From contig MIAY01000001.1 in NCBI GenBank assembly GCA_001829315.1, forward strand, positions 386,927-450,926: a stretch of 64,000 nt of DNA, given 5' to 3'. Source of the stretch: Spirochaetes bacterium GWE1_32_154 (GTDB taxonomy: Bacteria; Spirochaetota; GWE2-31-10). The notes beneath the pieces were generated by a model. That model saw nothing but the letters and a program-made list of their open reading frames with translations. It searched no databases and was not told where the DNA came from. Positions 9,378 through 22,442 of this stretch are shown piece after piece (position 1 is the stretch's first letter; each line of letters opens with the position of its first letter). A program made the position numbers and the translations under genes.

Positions 9378-12300
9378 ATGCTGCTAAAAAAATTATGCAT
9401 AATTTTATTATTGTATTCTTCAACACTCCTTTTTTCTGAAAATATTTTCTGGGATAATGAAAAACTGATAATTAACGGAAAAATCGGAAAAATAAAAACG
9501 ATTGCAGAGGGTAATTCAATCTATTTATTCTATGCTGATATGAAAAATTACACAGCAACAAATACAACTTTTGACATACAGTGTATGATATCAAATGACG
9601 GAAGAACTTTTAAGACCACAAACATATCGATAGAAAATGGATATACCAATACTGAATACGGTTACGATTTCGATGCCACTATTATAAACGGGAAAATATA
9701 CATAATTTATCGTGAAACATTAAAAAAAATCACTCTATATGAAATTGAAATTGCTCGAGGCTTTAAGAGACAACTGTATGTATTCGAGGAGAATGAAAAT
9801 ATCCTTTATCTCCCTAAGATTGATTTAGATACGAAAGGAAATATTAATATACTATACTATTCCTACGGTTTATCGGAAGAGCTTATTTTTAAAAGCATTA
9901 CATTAACCGGATCACTCGTAAATTCCAGTAAAATTGGTAAGAATCTTCAATCTGTTTTAAACCCGGAAATAAAATTTTATAATGACATCATTTATGTTGT
10001 GTACCAGGCACGAGAAGCAACCGCTTCAGGAGAAGGAAGACAGTTATACTATAAAATATTTATTGATTATTCAAACGATTTCGGGGCAACCTGGACGACA
10101 AGCCCTCTTGTTAAAGGTGATGAGGAATTCAGGCAAAATCAAAGACCGCATTTTATTCTGGATGGCACAAAAATTTATATTGTATGGGAAAAAGATGATG
10201 AGAGTTTTCTATCACATATTGCATATAAATGTATTGATTTATCAACAAACACCGAATTGTTCAACTCTACAATATCATCTATTCAAAGTGAAGGGTATTC
10301 ACCACGAATTTTGAGATCAAAAGGTGTTAATTATATATTCTGGTATGATAATAAATCGGGAAGTTTTCAAAATTATTTTCTTCAGGGCGTTGAAAATGAA
10401 TTAACCGAAATTCAACCGTTAAAACAGATAAAAACACGAACAGTTATGTTAAATCCTGTTTTATACAAATCAAAACCTTTGTTAATATGGAATAACACCG
10501 ATGCAAAGCAAAATAGACTTTTTCTTCAAAAAAATGATGAATTTGTTGAATCACCAACGCTTTTTGTAAAAGGCGTTGGCAGGGAAGGAATAACCAATAA
10601 TACTTCAGTCGTACTCAATTGGACACCTGTTCAGGATATTTCCGGCATAAAAGAATACCGATTAATTCTGACACAGGACGCTAACGAAAAAATGGATAGA
10701 ACTAGAGTCGGTTTGTCATCTTTTATCGATGAACGAACCTTTAACAACCTTGCTGACGGAAAATGGTACGCAAAAATTGCTTCGTATGATAATGCCGGTA
10801 ATGAAAGTGCAATTCGTGAATTATCTTTTGAAATTGATACCGTTGCACCTTACCCGCCATTATTTAATGATATGGAAAAAAAAGAAGACGGTTCACTTAC
10901 AAGCAATTCTCCGGTAATTTCATGGCGAAGTGAAGAAGAGGAATATTCAAAATATGAAATAGTAACCAATTATTTTAATGGTGAATTTAATCTTGAAGCA
11001 GCGAGAAATAATGCTCAAAAATACATCGCCGGCGCCGGAAAGATAAAAAAAGGTACGATTACCGGTGATTCAATGAGTTCATTTAACAGTCTTGATAACG
11101 GCGTTCTTGTTGTCGGTGTTGCAGGATATGATAAAGCGGGAAATAAATCTGATTTTACCTTTCAATCATTTGTACTAAACAGTTACGTTCCTGTGACGTA
11201 CATAGATTCTGCTGCATTTGTAATGTATGGAATAGTTGATAAAGTTTTAAAAATAACCGGACGTGGTTTTAGTGTCGATGGTGAATTAGAAAGAATAATT
11301 ATTGACCGTGATAAAATTGAACCGTATGATTATGTTCTTGAAAAAAGAAATCTCAGGGTTGTATCAGATCGTGTTGCGATACAACGTTTTCCAATAGAAT
11401 TAAATGATGGCAGATATTTTATCGGTGTTGAACATCCTCAACGTGGATTAGTTTTTTCCAGTAAATTTGTACGATATACAACTGAATGGTTATTTTCTTT
11501 TGAAAGTAAAGATTACTTTAGTTTTGAACGCATTAAAGGTCTTGGAAAAAGCATAAATGCCACAATGCTCATCTTAACTGCTATAGCAGGTATCTGGTTT
11601 CTTCTGTTTTTTCTTTTATTCCGCGGGATATTAATAACGGCAAATGAAAAACGATATGTGAATATGCTGCTCATTGAATTTGAAAACCATAAAGATAGTT
11701 TAAGCGACAAAATTATATCAGCTCAAAAAGAGGTTATTATGAAAATAAAAATGAGTCTAACCGTAAAATATACGTTATTAATATTATCACTGGTAATATT
11801 AATAGTAACATCAACATCAACTGTTGTCGGAATATTTGCTCTGCGAAGCAGTTCTATCAATTTAACAGAAGAAATAAAAAAACGGTTTGATCAGACACTC
11901 ACAAATTATCGTGGTGGTATCAATGATATTATTTTCTTTAATAAAGAACGGTTTGAAGCCAATGACCTTTCACGAAGCACAGCAGCCTTGCCGAATATCG
12001 GTTTTATTTATTCAGTATTTGATAAAGGACAGGCTGTCGGTTTTTCTGCAGGCGGAAGTGATGATATAACCTATAATAATTTTAATATTTCCGACTTTAA
12101 AACTATGGACTCAACAAAAAGAAATGAAACAATTAAAAAATATTTCTATAATGATGATTTAAATAAAGTCGTTGAAATGTATACAAAAAGAATCCTTCCT
12201 GAAACTATATCCAATACTGAGTTCACAACCATTTTACCTTCAAAGATCGCAGCGTATCGATTAAAAGTTGATGAACAGATAAAGAAATCTTCGACCCGGG

Positions 12301-13697
12301 TTGACAGTATCAAATTTGAAAACATTCTTAAAGATATTGATTCTTTTTCATCTCATATTAAAACCCTCTATTCGTATGATTCTAAAAATAAAAAATATAT
12401 ATTAAGTGCTAATACCGAAGAAAAAACAATGAAATCTCTTTTTGATTTTTTTGTAAGTATTGAATGGATTCATAATTCAGTTCATATAGTACCGGAGCTA
12501 AATCCAAATGACATACAGGACAGTTATTTATTTTACATGCCGATTTTCCCGATTAATATTGAAGGCGGGGCAAAACAATATGCCGGGGATGTTTTAATTT
12601 GTTATTCATTTAAAGATACAAAAAAACTACTTGATGAACAAAGAAAAAATTTAATATTCATTATGCTTGTTGTAACGCTAACGGCAATAGCATTAAGTGC
12701 CGTCGGTTCGGTAATTCTCGCTTCATCAACAATCAGGCCTATAAAAAAAATGTATAATCATGTTAATGTAATTTCAACAACTGAGGATTATGAAAAACTT
12801 GTCGGTACTGTCAATGAAACCCTGACTATAAATACCGGGGATGAAATTGCAATTCTTGCCAATTCGATTAATGCTATGACTCATAAATTAATTGAAAAAG
12901 CAAAAGCTGATAAACAGCTATTGCTCGGTAAGGAAATCCAGAAAAAATTCATTCCTCTTGAGCCTTTTCAGAATGATGAAATTGATATTTACGGTTTTTA
13001 CGAGGGGGCAAAAGGGGTTTCAGGAGATTATTTTGATTACAAAAAAATCGATGATGAGCACTATGCATTTATTATTTGTGATGTTGCCGGAAAAGCTGTT
13101 CCTGCAGCACTTATCATGGTGCAGATTTCAACAATTTTCCATTCATTTACAACAAATTTTAAACCGGGTATTGATAAAATTGAAACAACAAAAATTGTAA
13201 CAGAAATAAATGACACCGTTGCCGAACGGGGGTTTCAAGGTCGATTTGCTGCAATTCTTGTTCTTATTATGAATATTAAAACCGGTAAAGCATACATTAG
13301 TAATGCTGGTTATACACAATTATTAGTTCATAGAGAGGCAACCGGCAAATGTGAATGGGTAAAACTTGACGCTGACAGCGGAGCGGCGGGGGTTTTCCCT
13401 TCGTATATGTTACCACATCCGTACAGACAGGAAATTATTAAAATAAATCACGGGGATATCATATTTTTCTTTAGTGACGGTATTGAAGAGTCAAGAAACG
13501 GAGAAACCTTTGTTAATGAAGTCGGTGAAGTACAATTTGATGAATTTGGTTTACCGAGAATAATTCAGACACTTGATGCTGCACATGAAAAAACAGCTGA
13601 AGGTGTTATAAGTCATTTAATGCAAACAGAAAGAAAATATCGTGGTAATATGGAACAGTATGATGATTTAACTATTCTGGCAGTAAGAAGAGTTTAA
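9378..13697 (+). CDS. Membrane SpoIIE-type PP2C phosphatase with large extracytoplasmic sensor
   Basis: 1439 residues. Order: signal peptide (1-20); a repetitive beta-rich region (about 25-400) resembling a sialidase or propeller fold; Ig/FN3-like segments (about 405-700, NWTPVQDISGIKEYRL); a membrane helix at about 727-747; a second at about 793-822; a further sensor domain to about 1090; a third helix (1090-1117); HAMP (to about 1175); and a C-terminal SpoIIE/PP2C domain. The phosphatase motifs are intact: GVSGDYFDY, CDVAGKAVPAAL, SDGIEESRNG and YDDLTILAV, which supply the metal-binding Asp residues. Family members dephosphorylate Ser/Thr on anti-sigma antagonist-type proteins; no such partner is encoded nearby. 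The start has AGGGGAT about ten bases upstream, inside the end of the TPR gene. Confidence 0.88.
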   Translation: MLLKKLCIILLLYSSTLLFSENIFWDNEKLIINGKIGKIKTIAEGNSIYLFYADMKNYTATNTTFDIQCMISNDGRTFKTTNISIENGYTNTEYGYDFDATIINGKIYIIYRETLKKITLYEIEIARGFKRQLYVFEENENILYLPKIDLDTKGNINILYYSYGLSEELIFKSITLTGSLVNSSKIGKNLQSVLNPEIKFYNDIIYVVYQAREATASGEGRQLYYKIFIDYSNDFGATWTTSPLVKGDEEFRQNQRPHFILDGTKIYIVWEKDDESFLSHIAYKCIDLSTNTELFNSTISSIQSEGYSPRILRSKGVNYIFWYDNKSGSFQNYFLQGVENELTEIQPLKQIKTRTVMLNPVLYKSKPLLIWNNTDAKQNRLFLQKNDEFVESPTLFVKGVGREGITNNTSVVLNWTPVQDISGIKEYRLILTQDANEKMDRTRVGLSSFIDERTFNNLADGKWYAKIASYDNAGNESAIRELSFEIDTVAPYPPLFNDMEKKEDGSLTSNSPVISWRSEEEEYSKYEIVTNYFNGEFNLEAARNNAQKYIAGAGKIKKGTITGDSMSSFNSLDNGVLVVGVAGYDKAGNKSDFTFQSFVLNSYVPVTYIDSAAFVMYGIVDKVLKITGRGFSVDGELERIIIDRDKIEPYDYVLEKRNLRVVSDRVAIQRFPIELNDGRYFIGVEHPQRGLVFSSKFVRYTTEWLFSFESKDYFSFERIKGLGKSINATMLILTAIAGIWFLLFFLLFRGILITANEKRYVNMLLIEFENHKDSLSDKIISAQKEVIMKIKMSLTVKYTLLILSLVILIVTSTSTVVGIFALRSSSINLTEEIKKRFDQTLTNYRGGINDIIFFNKERFEANDLSRSTAALPNIGFIYSVFDKGQAVGFSAGGSDDITYNNFNISDFKTMDSTKRNETIKKYFYNDDLNKVVEMYTKRILPETISNTEFTTILPSKIAAYRLKVDEQIKKSSTRVDSIKFENILKDIDSFSSHIKTLYSYDSKNKKYILSANTEEKTMKSLFDFFVSIEWIHNSVHIVPELNPNDIQDSYLFYMPIFPINIEGGAKQYAGDVLICYSFKDTKKLLDEQRKNLIFIMLVVTLTAIALSAVGSVILASSTIRPIKKMYNHVNVISTTEDYEKLVGTVNETLTINTGDEIAILANSINAMTHKLIEKAKADKQLLLGKEIQKKFIPLEPFQNDEIDIYGFYEGAKGVSGDYFDYKKIDDEHYAFIICDVAGKAVPAALIMVQISTIFHSFTTNFKPGIDKIETTKIVTEINDTVAERGFQGRFAAILVLIMNIKTGKAYISNAGYTQLLVHREATGKCEWVKLDADSGAAGVFPSYMLPHPYRQEIIKINHGDIIFFFSDGIEESRNGETFVNEVGEVQFDEFGLPRIIQTLDAAHEKTAEGVISHLMQTERKYRGNMEQYDDLTILAVRRV

Positions 13698-13773: not shown

Positions 13774-16347
13774 ATGAATTTGAAAGTTGTTAAAATAAAT
13801 CACGACAAATGTCTCAGTTGTTACCGGTGTATATCAGTATGTCCGGTTAAATTCTGTAATGATGCATCAGGTGAGAACATAATAGTTCATAGTGAGATTT
13901 GTATTAAATGCGGTAAATGTATTGATGCATGTTCTCATAAAGCCCGATATGGTGAAGACGACTTTGAAGAAGCATTTACTGCAATTGAAAATAACAAAAA
14001 ATGTGCAATACTTATTGATTCTCCTATTAATGCTTCTTTCAGTGGAAATATTTCCAATTTAAATAATTTTTTTAAGAAAAATGGCATATCAACAATAATT
14101 GAAGCCGGGTTCGGTCATGAATTATGTGCAAAAAAATATGCAGAATACATAAATTCCAAGGAAATCGGCTCAATTGTATTAACATCCGTTTGTCCGGTTA
14201 TCGTCAATTATATTGAGTTATACAAACCTCACTTATTACAATATCTTGCACCTATTGATTCACCGATAATGCATGCAGTGCATATCATTCGTTCGCAATA
14301 TCACGACCTCAAAGACCATGAACTTTTTTATATTTCACCTTGTCTTGCAAAAAAACAGGAATTCACAAAAACTTTTGACGATAAAGTCTATAATATTACA
14401 TACAAAAAAATATCGCATTATTTAGATACTAATAATATTGATATTAAATCTGACTATGAGTCTGAAAATGTTGATTATTATGACAGTACTCAAATATTTC
14501 CTACTACTAACTGGCTCGGAAAAAACATAAAGAAATATATTACCGATGATACAGAAATCAGAAAAATTACAGGGATTCATGATGTAATTCGCTATTTAGA
14601 ATCATTTGACTCGTATGATTTTCCATCTGATAAAAAAACCCTTATTGACTTATTAAGTTGCAAGGGCGGATGTGAAGGTGGAAGCGGAACTACTGTTTCA
14701 TTTGAAAATCAGGATAAACTAATACGTCATACCCTGAAATATGTTGAAAATATAAAAGACTCTGTTATGAACCATATATCGTATACTGATATTGTTAATA
14801 AATATTATGACTTAATAAAATCAGGCAGAAAATTTAACGATCGCTCTTCAATAAACTGGGTTGAAAAACCAAGAAAGAATGAGTTAGAACAAATATTTAT
14901 TTCATTGTATAAAAACAGTCATAATGATATTAAAAACTGTTCGAGTTGCGGTTATCATGAGTGTGATAAAATGGCAACTGCAATTTATAATAATTTAAAC
15001 AAAACTCAAAATTGCCATTTTTTTCTTCATCAGAAACTTTCCTATCTTGCTTTTCATGATGATGTAACCGGGCTTTTAAACAGAACCGCATTCTACTCAA
15101 GAATGGAAGAATCAATAAATCTTGAGATTAAATTCAACATAACAAATCCGAGAATCATTCTGATTCTAGATATCTGGGGTTTTCGCGAAATCAATGAAAC
15201 ACTCGGCAATGATGTTGGTGACGAAGTTCTCGTTAGAACAGCGACACGATTGCGATCAGTTTTATCAGATGGTGACCTGTTATTTAGAATCGGTAGTGAT
15301 GAATTTGCAATAGTTATGAATGGAGAAAAAACTGAAGCTGAGCTTGAGTCGTATGTTAATGATGTAAATTCATTATTCACGACAAGTATGTATATTGATG
15401 ATAATGAACTATTTATCAGTATGAACTGTGGTGCATCGGTATTCCCGTTAGATGGCGATACTTCTTCAGCGGTAATAAAAAATGCTGAAACAGCACTTCA
15501 TGAAGCTAAATTTATAAAAAAAGATTTTGTAAAATTCACCGTTGATATGCATATTAGAACTATAGAACGATTAAACATTATCAACAGTCTTAGAAACGCT
15601 TTAGAAAAACACGAATTTGAATTATACTATCAACCTCAATATTCATCACTCGGGCATTTAATAGGCGCAGAAGCATTAATACGATGGGTTCGCCCGGAAT
15701 TTGGCATTGTTTCACCCGATCGTTTTATTCCGCTTGCCGAGGAGTCAGGTCTTATCGTTCCAATCGGTGAATGGGTTATTGACACTGTATGCAGGGATTT
15801 TGTAAAAATAAGAGATCTCGGGTTAGACTTAACATTATCAGCAAATTTATCTGTTCGCCAATTTAAAGATAAAGAACTTATCAATAAAATTGAAATGATG
15901 ATGAACAAATATAATATCGATAAAAATAAAATGCACCTTGAAATTACCGAAAGTTTTATCATGGACAATGCAAGTGAGTCGGTTGACAAACTTAAACAAC
16001 TAAGCGATATGGGGCTGAAAATATCCCTTGATGATTTTGGAACAGGTTATTCATGCCTCGGATATTTAAATCATTTGTCTCTTGATGTATTAAAAATTGA
16101 CAAATCGTTTATCGACCAGATTACCAGTGAATCAGTATGTGTGCCCCTTGTTGATACTATAGTTTCAATGGCAATGGGAATGGGGCTTGATGTTGTTGCT
16201 GAGGGAGTCAGTGAATTGCATCATGTTGAATATTTGCGGAAATTTGATTTTGATATCATTATGCAGGGGTTTTATTTTGGCCGGCCTGTACCATTTGACA
16301 CATTTATTGTGTATGCAATGAATGATTCTTTGAAATTACCGGGTTAA
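13774..16347 (+). CDS. Sensory [FeFe]-hydrogenase-like protein fused to GGDEF and EAL domains
   Basis: 857 residues. Order: two ferredoxin [4Fe-4S] motifs (residues 12-53, CLSCYRCISVCP and CIKCGKCIDAC); a [FeFe]-hydrogenase H-cluster domain (about 75-330) with TSVCP (138-142), SPCLAKKQE (about 188) and SCKGGCEGG (294-302), which keep the four cluster cysteines; a small Fe-S domain with CSSCGYHEC (about 388); GGDEF (about 425-575) with GSDEF in place of GGDEF; and EAL (about 595-850) with EALIRW, ANLS, ITES, DDFGTGYS, LKIDKSFI, AEGV and MQGFYFG intact. The cysteine that passes protons in catalytic hydrogenases is Val here (TSVCP against TSCCP), as expected of sensory forms. The inferred role is an H2- or redox-sensing c-di-GMP phosphodiesterase. 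There is no transmembrane segment. AGGA lies seven bases before the ATG. No maturation genes (hydE, hydF, hydG) are in view. Confidence 0.88.
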   Translation: MNLKVVKINHDKCLSCYRCISVCPVKFCNDASGENIIVHSEICIKCGKCIDACSHKARYGEDDFEEAFTAIENNKKCAILIDSPINASFSGNISNLNNFFKKNGISTIIEAGFGHELCAKKYAEYINSKEIGSIVLTSVCPVIVNYIELYKPHLLQYLAPIDSPIMHAVHIIRSQYHDLKDHELFYISPCLAKKQEFTKTFDDKVYNITYKKISHYLDTNNIDIKSDYESENVDYYDSTQIFPTTNWLGKNIKKYITDDTEIRKITGIHDVIRYLESFDSYDFPSDKKTLIDLLSCKGGCEGGSGTTVSFENQDKLIRHTLKYVENIKDSVMNHISYTDIVNKYYDLIKSGRKFNDRSSINWVEKPRKNELEQIFISLYKNSHNDIKNCSSCGYHECDKMATAIYNNLNKTQNCHFFLHQKLSYLAFHDDVTGLLNRTAFYSRMEESINLEIKFNITNPRIILILDIWGFREINETLGNDVGDEVLVRTATRLRSVLSDGDLLFRIGSDEFAIVMNGEKTEAELESYVNDVNSLFTTSMYIDDNELFISMNCGASVFPLDGDTSSAVIKNAETALHEAKFIKKDFVKFTVDMHIRTIERLNIINSLRNALEKHEFELYYQPQYSSLGHLIGAEALIRWVRPEFGIVSPDRFIPLAEESGLIVPIGEWVIDTVCRDFVKIRDLGLDLTLSANLSVRQFKDKELINKIEMMMNKYNIDKNKMHLEITESFIMDNASESVDKLKQLSDMGLKISLDDFGTGYSCLGYLNHLSLDVLKIDKSFIDQITSESVCVPLVDTIVSMAMGMGLDVVAEGVSELHHVEYLRKFDFDIIMQGFYFGRPVPFDTFIVYAMNDSLKLPG

Positions 16348-20957: not shown

Positions 20958-22442
20958 ATGACAAAGATTAGTATGAAGTTAGGAATTATTTATATATTCC
21001 TCGTTTTTTTAAACATTACATTTTTTACCGTCATGGTTTTTGAAAATCAAGTAGATTTGATTATAGATAATGCAAAATTTAGAACAGTAGAAATTACAGA
21101 TAAACTTATATCATCTATAAATTCATTAAACTATTCAGTTTCAACCTCAAATGAGAATTCAAATCAATTAATTACAAAAATTGTTGATATACTAAAAACC
21201 AATGTAAATAATTATGTGATTTTTAATGAAAAGAAAGAAATCTTTGCTTCCTCAGTTAAAGATATTGAAATTTCAGAGAACTATATAAAAAATGCCATAA
21301 ACGCTTCTTCTGCTAAGAATTTTAGTGATAAAAAATATTCTTTTGAAGTTTCACGTGATCAAATATCCTATTTTATTCCTTTTTATTCTGAAAAAACCGG
21401 TGATATTACAATTTCATTTATCATGTCACTTAAAGAAATTGATAATAGGATGAAAAATTTATATCTTCAGGTTTTTGCTATCGTAATTATTTTAATAATA
21501 CTTCATACATTAATAGGTTACCTTTTAAACATTATAATTGTTAAACCACTGATGGCACTCAAAAGGAAAACTGATGATTTTTCAAGTGGAGATTTCAGTG
21601 TGCGGGTAAAAGTTAAAGGTAATGATGAACTTGCCCTTGTATCCTCAACATTTAACAGTATGGCCGAGTCTGTTGAACAATTTATTAAACGATTAAAAAA
21701 CCAGAATGATCTTCTTAATATGGAGTTGGAAGTCGCAGCTCAAGTTCAGGAAGGTATTTATCCGAAAGTAAAACCAAACGATCACTTTTTAGTATCAATT
21801 TATAACAATCCTTTAGAAAAGGTTAGTGGTGACTTTCATGATTTAATCAAATTACCCGGGAATAAATATGGTTTTTTTATAGCTGATGTTTCCGGTCACG
21901 GAGTTCCCGCTGCTCTTATTACTATGAAAATTAAAGACTTAATTACCGTTACATCGTCAAACTTTGTTGATCCTGCTGCATTACTGAAATTTTTTAATAT
22001 TTCATTTGCAGATTTAATGGAACGGTTTTCTTCATATTTCACAGCATCATATTTGATACTTGACTGGGATTCAAATGAAGTTCTATACTCAGCTGCAGGT
22101 CATCCTGATGCCTATATCCTTAGAAAAAATGGCACAATAGAGGATCTTAGTGCAGAAGGTTTTGTTATTGGTGTTTCAAAAGAAATGTCTGATACTTTCA
22201 GAACAGTAAAAGGTCATATTGAAAAAGGTGATGTAATCATACTTTATACTGATGGAATAACAGAATCAAGAAATGCCAAAGGTGTTTTTTATGGTGATAA
22301 AGCATTTCCTGATTGTATTAAAAGCTCAATCGGTAAGAGCGCAGATGAAATTAAACATGAACTTGTTTCTAATCTCAAAATGTATACTGAAGGATTGGAA
22401 CGAAAAGATGATGAAACTCTCATTATTATTGAGGTAAAATAA
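20958..22442 (+). CDS. Membrane SpoIIE-type PP2C phosphatase with HAMP domain
   Basis: 494 residues. Membrane helices lie at about 8-28 and 170-195, enclosing an extracytoplasmic sensor of about 140 residues; a HAMP domain follows (about 196-245, ending ELALVSSTFNSMAESVEQ), then a SpoIIE/PP2C domain. Phosphatase motifs are intact: SGDFHDLIKL, ADVSGHGVPAAL, YTDGITESRN and KDDETLIIIEV. This is a standard transmembrane regulator that should release an anti-sigma antagonist-type substrate on signal. It is the second such enzyme in the window and is much smaller than the one at 9378. AAGGAAA lies six bases upstream of the ATG. Its stop shares one base with the start of the next gene. Confidence 0.88.
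   Translation: MTKISMKLGIIYIFLVFLNITFFTVMVFENQVDLIIDNAKFRTVEITDKLISSINSLNYSVSTSNENSNQLITKIVDILKTNVNNYVIFNEKKEIFASSVKDIEISENYIKNAINASSAKNFSDKKYSFEVSRDQISYFIPFYSEKTGDITISFIMSLKEIDNRMKNLYLQVFAIVIILIILHTLIGYLLNIIIVKPLMALKRKTDDFSSGDFSVRVKVKGNDELALVSSTFNSMAESVEQFIKRLKNQNDLLNMELEVAAQVQEGIYPKVKPNDHFLVSIYNNPLEKVSGDFHDLIKLPGNKYGFFIADVSGHGVPAALITMKIKDLITVTSSNFVDPAALLKFFNISFADLMERFSSYFTASYLILDWDSNEVLYSAAGHPDAYILRKNGTIEDLSAEGFVIGVSKEMSDTFRTVKGHIEKGDVIILYTDGITESRNAKGVFYGDKAFPDCIKSSIGKSADEIKHELVSNLKMYTEGLERKDDETLIIIEVK

Follow-up and report, generated by a model that had tools for sequence, protein, structure and literature searches.

Hydrogenase-like sensors of termite-gut treponemes are, like the protein described here (P0001), H-domain sensor proteins of Spirochaetota, and Ballor, Paulsen and Leadbetter (2012) reportedly proposed phosphorelay and methylation outputs for them, not c-di-GMP. 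TamHydS of Thermoanaerobacter mathranii (group D / M2e) has been shown to bind an H-cluster and to react with H2. The spacing Cx2Cx4Cx16C has been described for this protein (PMC6984386), and with H2 its secondary structure changes and its C-terminal cluster stays oxidized (PMC13104023). HydDB recognizes the [FeFe] classes C1 (kinase), C2 (chemotactic), and C3 (phosphatase) and makes a link to c-di-GMP only for [NiFe] group 2c (PMC5037454). For want of a measurable output, [FeFe]-hydrogenases continue to be regarded as putative H2 sensors.

In the window, the whole 64,000-nucleotide stretch of DNA analyzed here, P0001 joins a sensor of this family to a GGDEF-EAL pair, an output without earlier description in the accessible literature for this known sensor family and one that recurs in Spirochaetota. 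Our search of the open-access literature found no description of a hydrogenase-EAL protein. We read P0001 as a DosP-like c-di-GMP phosphodiesterase gated by H2, with a probability of about one half. The domain layout, the ligand set, the catalytic residues, and the kinship to hydrogenase-methyl-accepting chemotaxis protein (MCP) chemoreceptors are directly supported.

Domain organization of P0001

P0001 is a single open frame running from ATG to stop at positions 13774-16347 on the + strand (857 aa), as the initial annotation had it, with the Shine-Dalgarno-like word AGGA directly 5' of the ATG. The domain search proposed there matched Fer4-type, Fe_hyd_lg_C, FeS (sub-threshold), GGDEF, and EAL, in that order. 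The features are as follows.

13774..16347, + strand: whole gene P0001, Fd(2x[4Fe-4S])-H-domain-FeS-GGDEF-EAL, 857 aa, from the open reading frame and Pfam; L016 has the identical layout and length
13774..13953, + strand: ferredoxin part, residues 1-60, with cysteines 13, 16, 19, 23 and 43, 46, 49, 53; Pfam Fer4 family
14050..14682, + strand: [FeFe]-hydrogenase H-domain, residues 93-303; PF02906 (Fe_hyd_lg_C), 91.8 bits, with a matching AF2 fold
14182..14196, + strand: motif L1 TSVCP, residues 137-141; V139 at the proton-relay site (CpI C299), C140 a cluster ligand
14335..14361, + strand: motif L2 SPCLAKKQE, residues 188-196; C190 a ligand, K193 (CpI K358), E196 (E361), S188 (M353)
14653..14682, + strand: motif L3 LSCKGGCEGG, residues 294-303; C296, C300, L294 (M497)
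14938..15015, + strand: small Fe-S domain Cx2Cx4Cx16C, residues 389-414; Pfam FeS sub-threshold, cysteines invariant in the alignment
15016..15081, + strand: predicted continuous helix, residues 415-436 (AF2 secondary structure), that starts after the last Fe-S cysteine and enters GGDEF, no PAS intervening
15049..15510, + strand: GGDEF domain, residues 426-579; motif GSDEF at 15292-15306, I-site arginine lost
15583..16287, + strand: EAL phosphodiesterase domain, residues 604-838; Pfam E 1.5e-60, catalytic E633 at 15670-15672

A frame or assembly artefact was ruled out, as P0001 lies in one open frame and L016, with the same layout, lies on another genome's contig; Pfam E-values of 1e-26 to 1e-60 together with this relative exclude chance or a mis-joined frame. 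The fusion of a hydrogenase-type sensor with GGDEF-EAL is real and recurs in relatives. A promoter scan at the gene gave a signal not clearly above that of shuffled sequence. None of the genes adjacent to L016 matched any gene of the window (0 matches), so P0001 has no conserved operon or neighbor partner by this comparison. Two HAMP-SpoIIE phosphatase proteins are encoded near the gene, at window positions 9378-13697 and 20958-22442, the former having 1439 aa and a long N-terminal part with only a weak Ig-like match.

Sensor half

Pfam places a Fer4-type ferredoxin at residues 4-56 of P0001 (E 2e-6 to 1e-5) and Fe_hyd_lg_C at residues 93-303 (E 6.7e-26; 91.8 bits against a curated cut-off of 22.1). 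The FeS domain matches at residues 388-415 with 19.2 bits, under the Pfam cut-off of 23, and exceeds that cut-off in relatives. The eight ferredoxin cysteines and the four of the FeS domain (389, 392, 397, and 414) are invariant across 37 aligned sequences, and the former are also kept in all 11 GGDEF-EAL fusions. With the H-cluster cysteines C140, C190, C296, and C300, P0001 keeps 16 of the 16 cysteines expected for its Fe-S clusters (8 ferredoxin, 4 H-cluster, and 4 C-terminal). Several readings made earlier from the letters are therefore borne out: the two ferredoxin motifs, the four H-cluster cysteines (in TSVCP, SPCLAKK, and SCKGGC), the small Fe-S domain, its sub-threshold score notwithstanding, and the replacement of the proton-relay cysteine by valine (V139). 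CpI-equivalent numbering was taken from the motif alignment (L1 TSxCP, L2 PCxxKxxE, L3 CxGGC).

The hydrogenase fold is present in an AF2 model of residues 1-437 (37 sequences; mean pLDDT, 85.7; pTM, 0.88), whose best PDB matches are all [FeFe]-hydrogenases, namely, CbA5H, the Desulfovibrio desulfuricans enzyme (DdH), Thermotoga maritima HydABC, and CpI (E 4e-17 to 1e-12; TM about 0.6). The C-terminal half of a full-length model, for which all alignment relatives were without EAL, has pLDDT values mostly below 60. P0001 combines V139 at the proton-relay site, a C-terminal Cx2Cx4Cx16C motif, and an attached signaling output, GGDEF-EAL, the features expected of a sensory hydrogenase. The H-domain tree, which includes no named HydS reference, recovers a sensory clade (support 100/99) apart from the group A/B types L001, L003, L033, and L035. 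Pfam profile, fold, and tree agree in keeping the H-domain inside the [FeFe]-hydrogenases, as initially annotated, and support its assignment to the sensory, nonmetabolic type.

Relatives and origins of the fusion

Searching 393 Spirochaetota genomes with the sensor profile A1 gave matches in 230 at E 1e-30 and in 89 at about 1e-85 or better. Sensor proteins sorted by output comprised 89 with MCP, 14 with histidine kinase (HK), 13 with SpoIIE, 11 with PAS, 10 with GGDEF-EAL, and 6 with CheA-like ends, from Spirochaetota, Bacteroidota, Fibrobacterota, Planctomycetota, Desulfobacterota, and other phyla. The usual output in the sensor clade of P0001 is therefore the MCP signaling domain and not the PAS plus kinase or phosphatase that had been supposed. 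With L289, added later, hydrogenase-GGDEF-EAL proteins in Spirochaetota number 11, and no EAL output was seen outside this phylum among the best 80 named of 433 relatives, classed by output. The earlier view that such a link is little described holds in that HydDB has no c-di-GMP-linked [FeFe] class; the protein is not unique, given 11 such fusions with at least two origins.

The H-domain tree splits the GGDEF-EAL proteins: P0001 and L016 group among MCP and SpoIIE types, and eight others form a clade of their own next to HK types. A single origin of all hydrogenase-GGDEF-EAL proteins was rejected (delta lnL 138; AU p 3.2e-5), with P0001 and L016 forming long branches. GGDEF-EAL thus appears to have taken the place of the MCP output at least twice, a count to be read with caution given these branches. 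By its sequence kinship, P0001 is an MCP-type sensor whose output was apparently exchanged. The independent clade in other Spirochaetota includes L065, L195, L196, L191, L192, L198, L199, L201, and L289; some of its members carry an extra C-terminal PAS (about 1160 aa), and GGDEF is strongly degenerate in most.

L016 belongs to a different genus within the family of the host and matches P0001 in layout and length, with identities of 52% (Fd), 32% (H-domain), 58% (FeS), 34% (GGDEF), and 45% (EAL). The EAL domains of the two are sisters (98/95); their H-domains are sisters in the quick tree but not in the careful one. Since GGDEF and I-site are intact in L016, the two proteins may balance cyclase against phosphodiesterase differently. 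Among other outputs, the H-domain sensors L183-L188 (about 890-930 aa) end in a CheA-like part with HATPase and, in one of them, Hpt; they have lost the L2 lysine in five of six cases and read AQCCP or SQCCP at L1 in three. The Bacteroidota proteins L085, L086, L093, L094, L113, L135, and L144 are stand-alone Fd-H-FeS modules of 463-481 aa with no output domain.

Evidence on the [2Fe] site

The host genome (4.03 Mb, 43 contigs, 97.6% complete) encodes seven Fe_hyd_lg_C proteins: three metabolic [FeFe]-hydrogenases with TSCCP or TSCSP at L1 (L001-L003), three hydrogenase-MCP fusions (L004-L006), and P0001. In L006, three of the four C-terminal Fe-S cysteines are lost and the H-cluster cysteines are kept. 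The initial annotation had looked to hydE, hydF, and hydG as support for an H-cluster in P0001. The maturases are indeed present elsewhere in the genome, all above curated cut-offs (HydF, 476 bits; HydG, 512 bits; HydE, 329 bits), but they are uninformative in this respect because the three metabolic hydrogenases need HydEFG anyway. A further HydG/ThiH-like radical SAM match (L047; G000:C1:206753-207766; 181 bits) has one in-frame TAA inside the matched stretch.

The best-surviving alternative to H2 gating is that P0001 has no [2Fe] site and gates its EAL domain by sensing redox (or O2/NO) at its Fe-S clusters: the [4Fe-4S] cube and accessory clusters would be retained, and hydrolysis would respond to cluster redox state or loss and not to H2; we regard it as possible but the weaker candidate. 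It draws on the L2 lysine, which is in place in 85 of 89 MCP, all 14 HK, and all 13 SpoIIE types, in 5 of the 11 GGDEF-EAL fusions, and in one of six CheA-like proteins, all cluster cysteines staying throughout. The replacements in the fusions vary (Q, A, N, D, V), which argues for repeated change. On the other hand, three of the six displaced cases have a lysine one residue later, and P0001 itself keeps K193 and E196 besides its 16 cysteines and has HydEFG in its genome. Other H-domain residues drift fast: P0001 retains 70 of the 97 positions that are at least 95% conserved in relatives, against 97 of 97 in the host MCP paralogue L005, and its branch in the H-domain tree is long.

Genome content bears on the same alternative. 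HydF and HydG are both found in 52 of the 89 Spirochaetota genomes with the sensor clade, one of them in 3, and neither in 34; in 33 of these 34 tested for HydE, 31 had nothing near the cut-off. Sensors in the HydF/HydG-less genomes keep the four cysteines, the lysine, and the glutamate as well as those elsewhere, which would imply a function independent of [2Fe]. The 31 genomes without HydE, HydF, or HydG near cut-off, among them G064, G080, G085, G137, G152, G156, G231, and G342, are in many cases 95-99% complete, G156 and G231 being in 2 contigs. They also encode [FeFe]-hydrogenase-like proteins (loci L210-L238) with the intact motifs of group A (TSCCP/MPCTAK/EVMACRGGC) or group B (TSCCS/GPCLAK/EVMACEGGC). 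Either the H-cluster is made there without HydEFG, or proteins with group A/B motifs exist without a [2Fe] site. A lack of HydEFG may therefore not mean a lack of the H-cluster, a point against the [2Fe]-free alternative, which the missing maturases favor. For the c-di-GMP fusions, and perhaps part of the Spirochaetota sensor clade, it is conceivable, though less likely than not, that the H-domain serves as a receptor without a HydEFG-made [2Fe] unit and passes redox or another ligand, not H2, directly to c-di-GMP control.

Gating of P0001 by H2 is plausible from its full set of ligands, its retained K193 and E196, its TamHydS-like second sphere, and the maturases encoded by its genome, and we put the claim at even odds because of the drifted H-domain, the displaced L2 lysine in the fusions, and the sensor-carrying genomes that have neither HydF nor HydG.

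Output half

The GGDEF domain of P0001 (E 5e-31; 108 bits) is degenerate, with GSDEF at residues 507-511 and SDGD instead of RxxD at the I-site, so that the GG(D/E)EF signature of an active diguanylate cyclase is absent and cyclase activity is unlikely. The EAL domain (residues 604-838; E 1.5e-60; 205 bits) has a complete catalytic and metal-binding set: EAL (E633), the N of NLS, the ExxE of LEITE, DDFGTG, the K of KID, the E of AEGV, and the Q of QG. The earlier reading of a degenerate GSDEF and a catalytically complete EAL in one chain accordingly stands on both Pfam and the residue check. MucR, MorA, and DosP, whose structures are solved, align over the full length of residues 420-845. With 6 EAL and 11 PilZ matches in the host genome, c-di-GMP signaling exists in this organism. 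From its residues, the EAL domain of P0001 looks able to destroy c-di-GMP; GTP allostery in the GSDEF domain, as initially suggested, could be proposed by analogy only.

It is unlikely that the EAL domain is nonenzymatic and that P0001 acts as a c-di-GMP-binding receptor or contact-signaling trigger protein, as LapD or FimX does. The degenerate GGDEF would fit such a role, as would a one-residue insertion before QG that P0001 and L016 have in common and that is absent in the 13 other EAL domains compared (15 in total). However, the closest solved relatives, MucR, MorA, and DosP, are described as active phosphodiesterases. All catalytic and metal-binding residues are also present in P0001, including the DDFGTG that FimX is without (PMC5301497).

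That P0001 is a decaying sensor, its H-domain now no more than a tether without function for a constitutive phosphodiesterase, is very improbable: the H-domain evolves fast and 27 of its 97 conserved positions are lost, but the 16 cysteines are kept in both P0001 and L016, whose H-domains are only 32% identical, and conservation is higher in Fd and FeS than in the H-domain, which points to selection on the clusters.

Proposed mechanism and significance

As a DosP-like phosphodiesterase gated by H2, P0001 would be a soluble cytoplasmic protein carrying a sensory-type [FeFe]-hydrogenase module where DosP has its haem-PAS. HydE, HydF, and HydG would supply the [2Fe] site, and H2 binding or oxidation, or redox poise acting via the two ferredoxin clusters, would alter the conformation of the H-domain. 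The change may reach the GGDEF-EAL pair by way of the C-terminal [4Fe-4S] lobe and then the helix at 415-436. We favor a conformational relay because H2 alters the secondary structure of TamHydS and leaves its C-terminal cluster unreduced (PMC13104023). Dimer geometry is the switch in EAL enzymes (PMC5301497); a shift in this geometry would shift EAL activity, by which c-di-GMP would be cleaved to pGpG. GSDEF would not readily make c-di-GMP; the domain is probably a dimerizing or GTP-sensing relay. The expected output is a lower c-di-GMP level, hence motility over attachment, and the three hydrogenase-MCP paralogues of the host may use this cue to direct chemotaxis.

P0001 places sensor and enzyme on one predicted soluble polypeptide, and its output, c-di-GMP to pGpG, should be simple to assay. 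Under H2 gating, an abundant gas of anaerobic settings would act directly on the switch between motile and sessile life; under gating by redox alone, the hydrogenase fold would have found a new use as a plain Fe-S receptor.

Comparison with known systems

The nearest class by sequence and tree is HydDB C2 (putative chemotactic, hydrogenase-MCP), which has the Fd-H-domain-FeS module in common with P0001 and three members in the host. Its output is MCP, whereas that of P0001 is GGDEF-EAL, and its L1 is usually AQPCP, whereas P0001 has TSVCP. P0001 therefore lies outside C2 as defined by MCP output, although its H-domain nests among MCP-linked relatives. TamHydS resembles P0001 in its two N-terminal ferredoxin clusters, its C-terminal Cx2Cx4Cx16C motif, and the loss of C299, and the two proteins have the second-sphere changes M353 to S and M497 to L in common (TamHydS, PMC11803613). 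In contrast to P0001, TamHydS has no attached output, and it has alanine at the C299 site where P0001 has valine. TmHydS of Thermotoga maritima (group C / M2f) likewise has a sensory H-domain and a C-terminal Fe-S cluster but, unlike P0001, also has PAS.

For [NiFe] group 2c (putative, diguanylate-cyclase-linked), an H2-to-c-di-GMP link is proposed, as it is here for P0001; its metal center is different, the protein is unrelated, and it is linked to a cyclase, whereas P0001 carries a phosphodiesterase. DosP of Escherichia coli (haem-PAS-GGDEF-EAL), like P0001, unites a gas or redox sensor, a degenerate GGDEF, and an active EAL in one chain, and the C-terminal half of P0001 aligns with it over residues 420-843 (E 1e-59); DosP reads O2 via its haem-PAS, and P0001 has the sensory-type [FeFe]-hydrogenase module instead. 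Overall, the known system that P0001 most resembles in its working is DosP, and its sensor family is sensory [FeFe] group C/D, not C2 by output.
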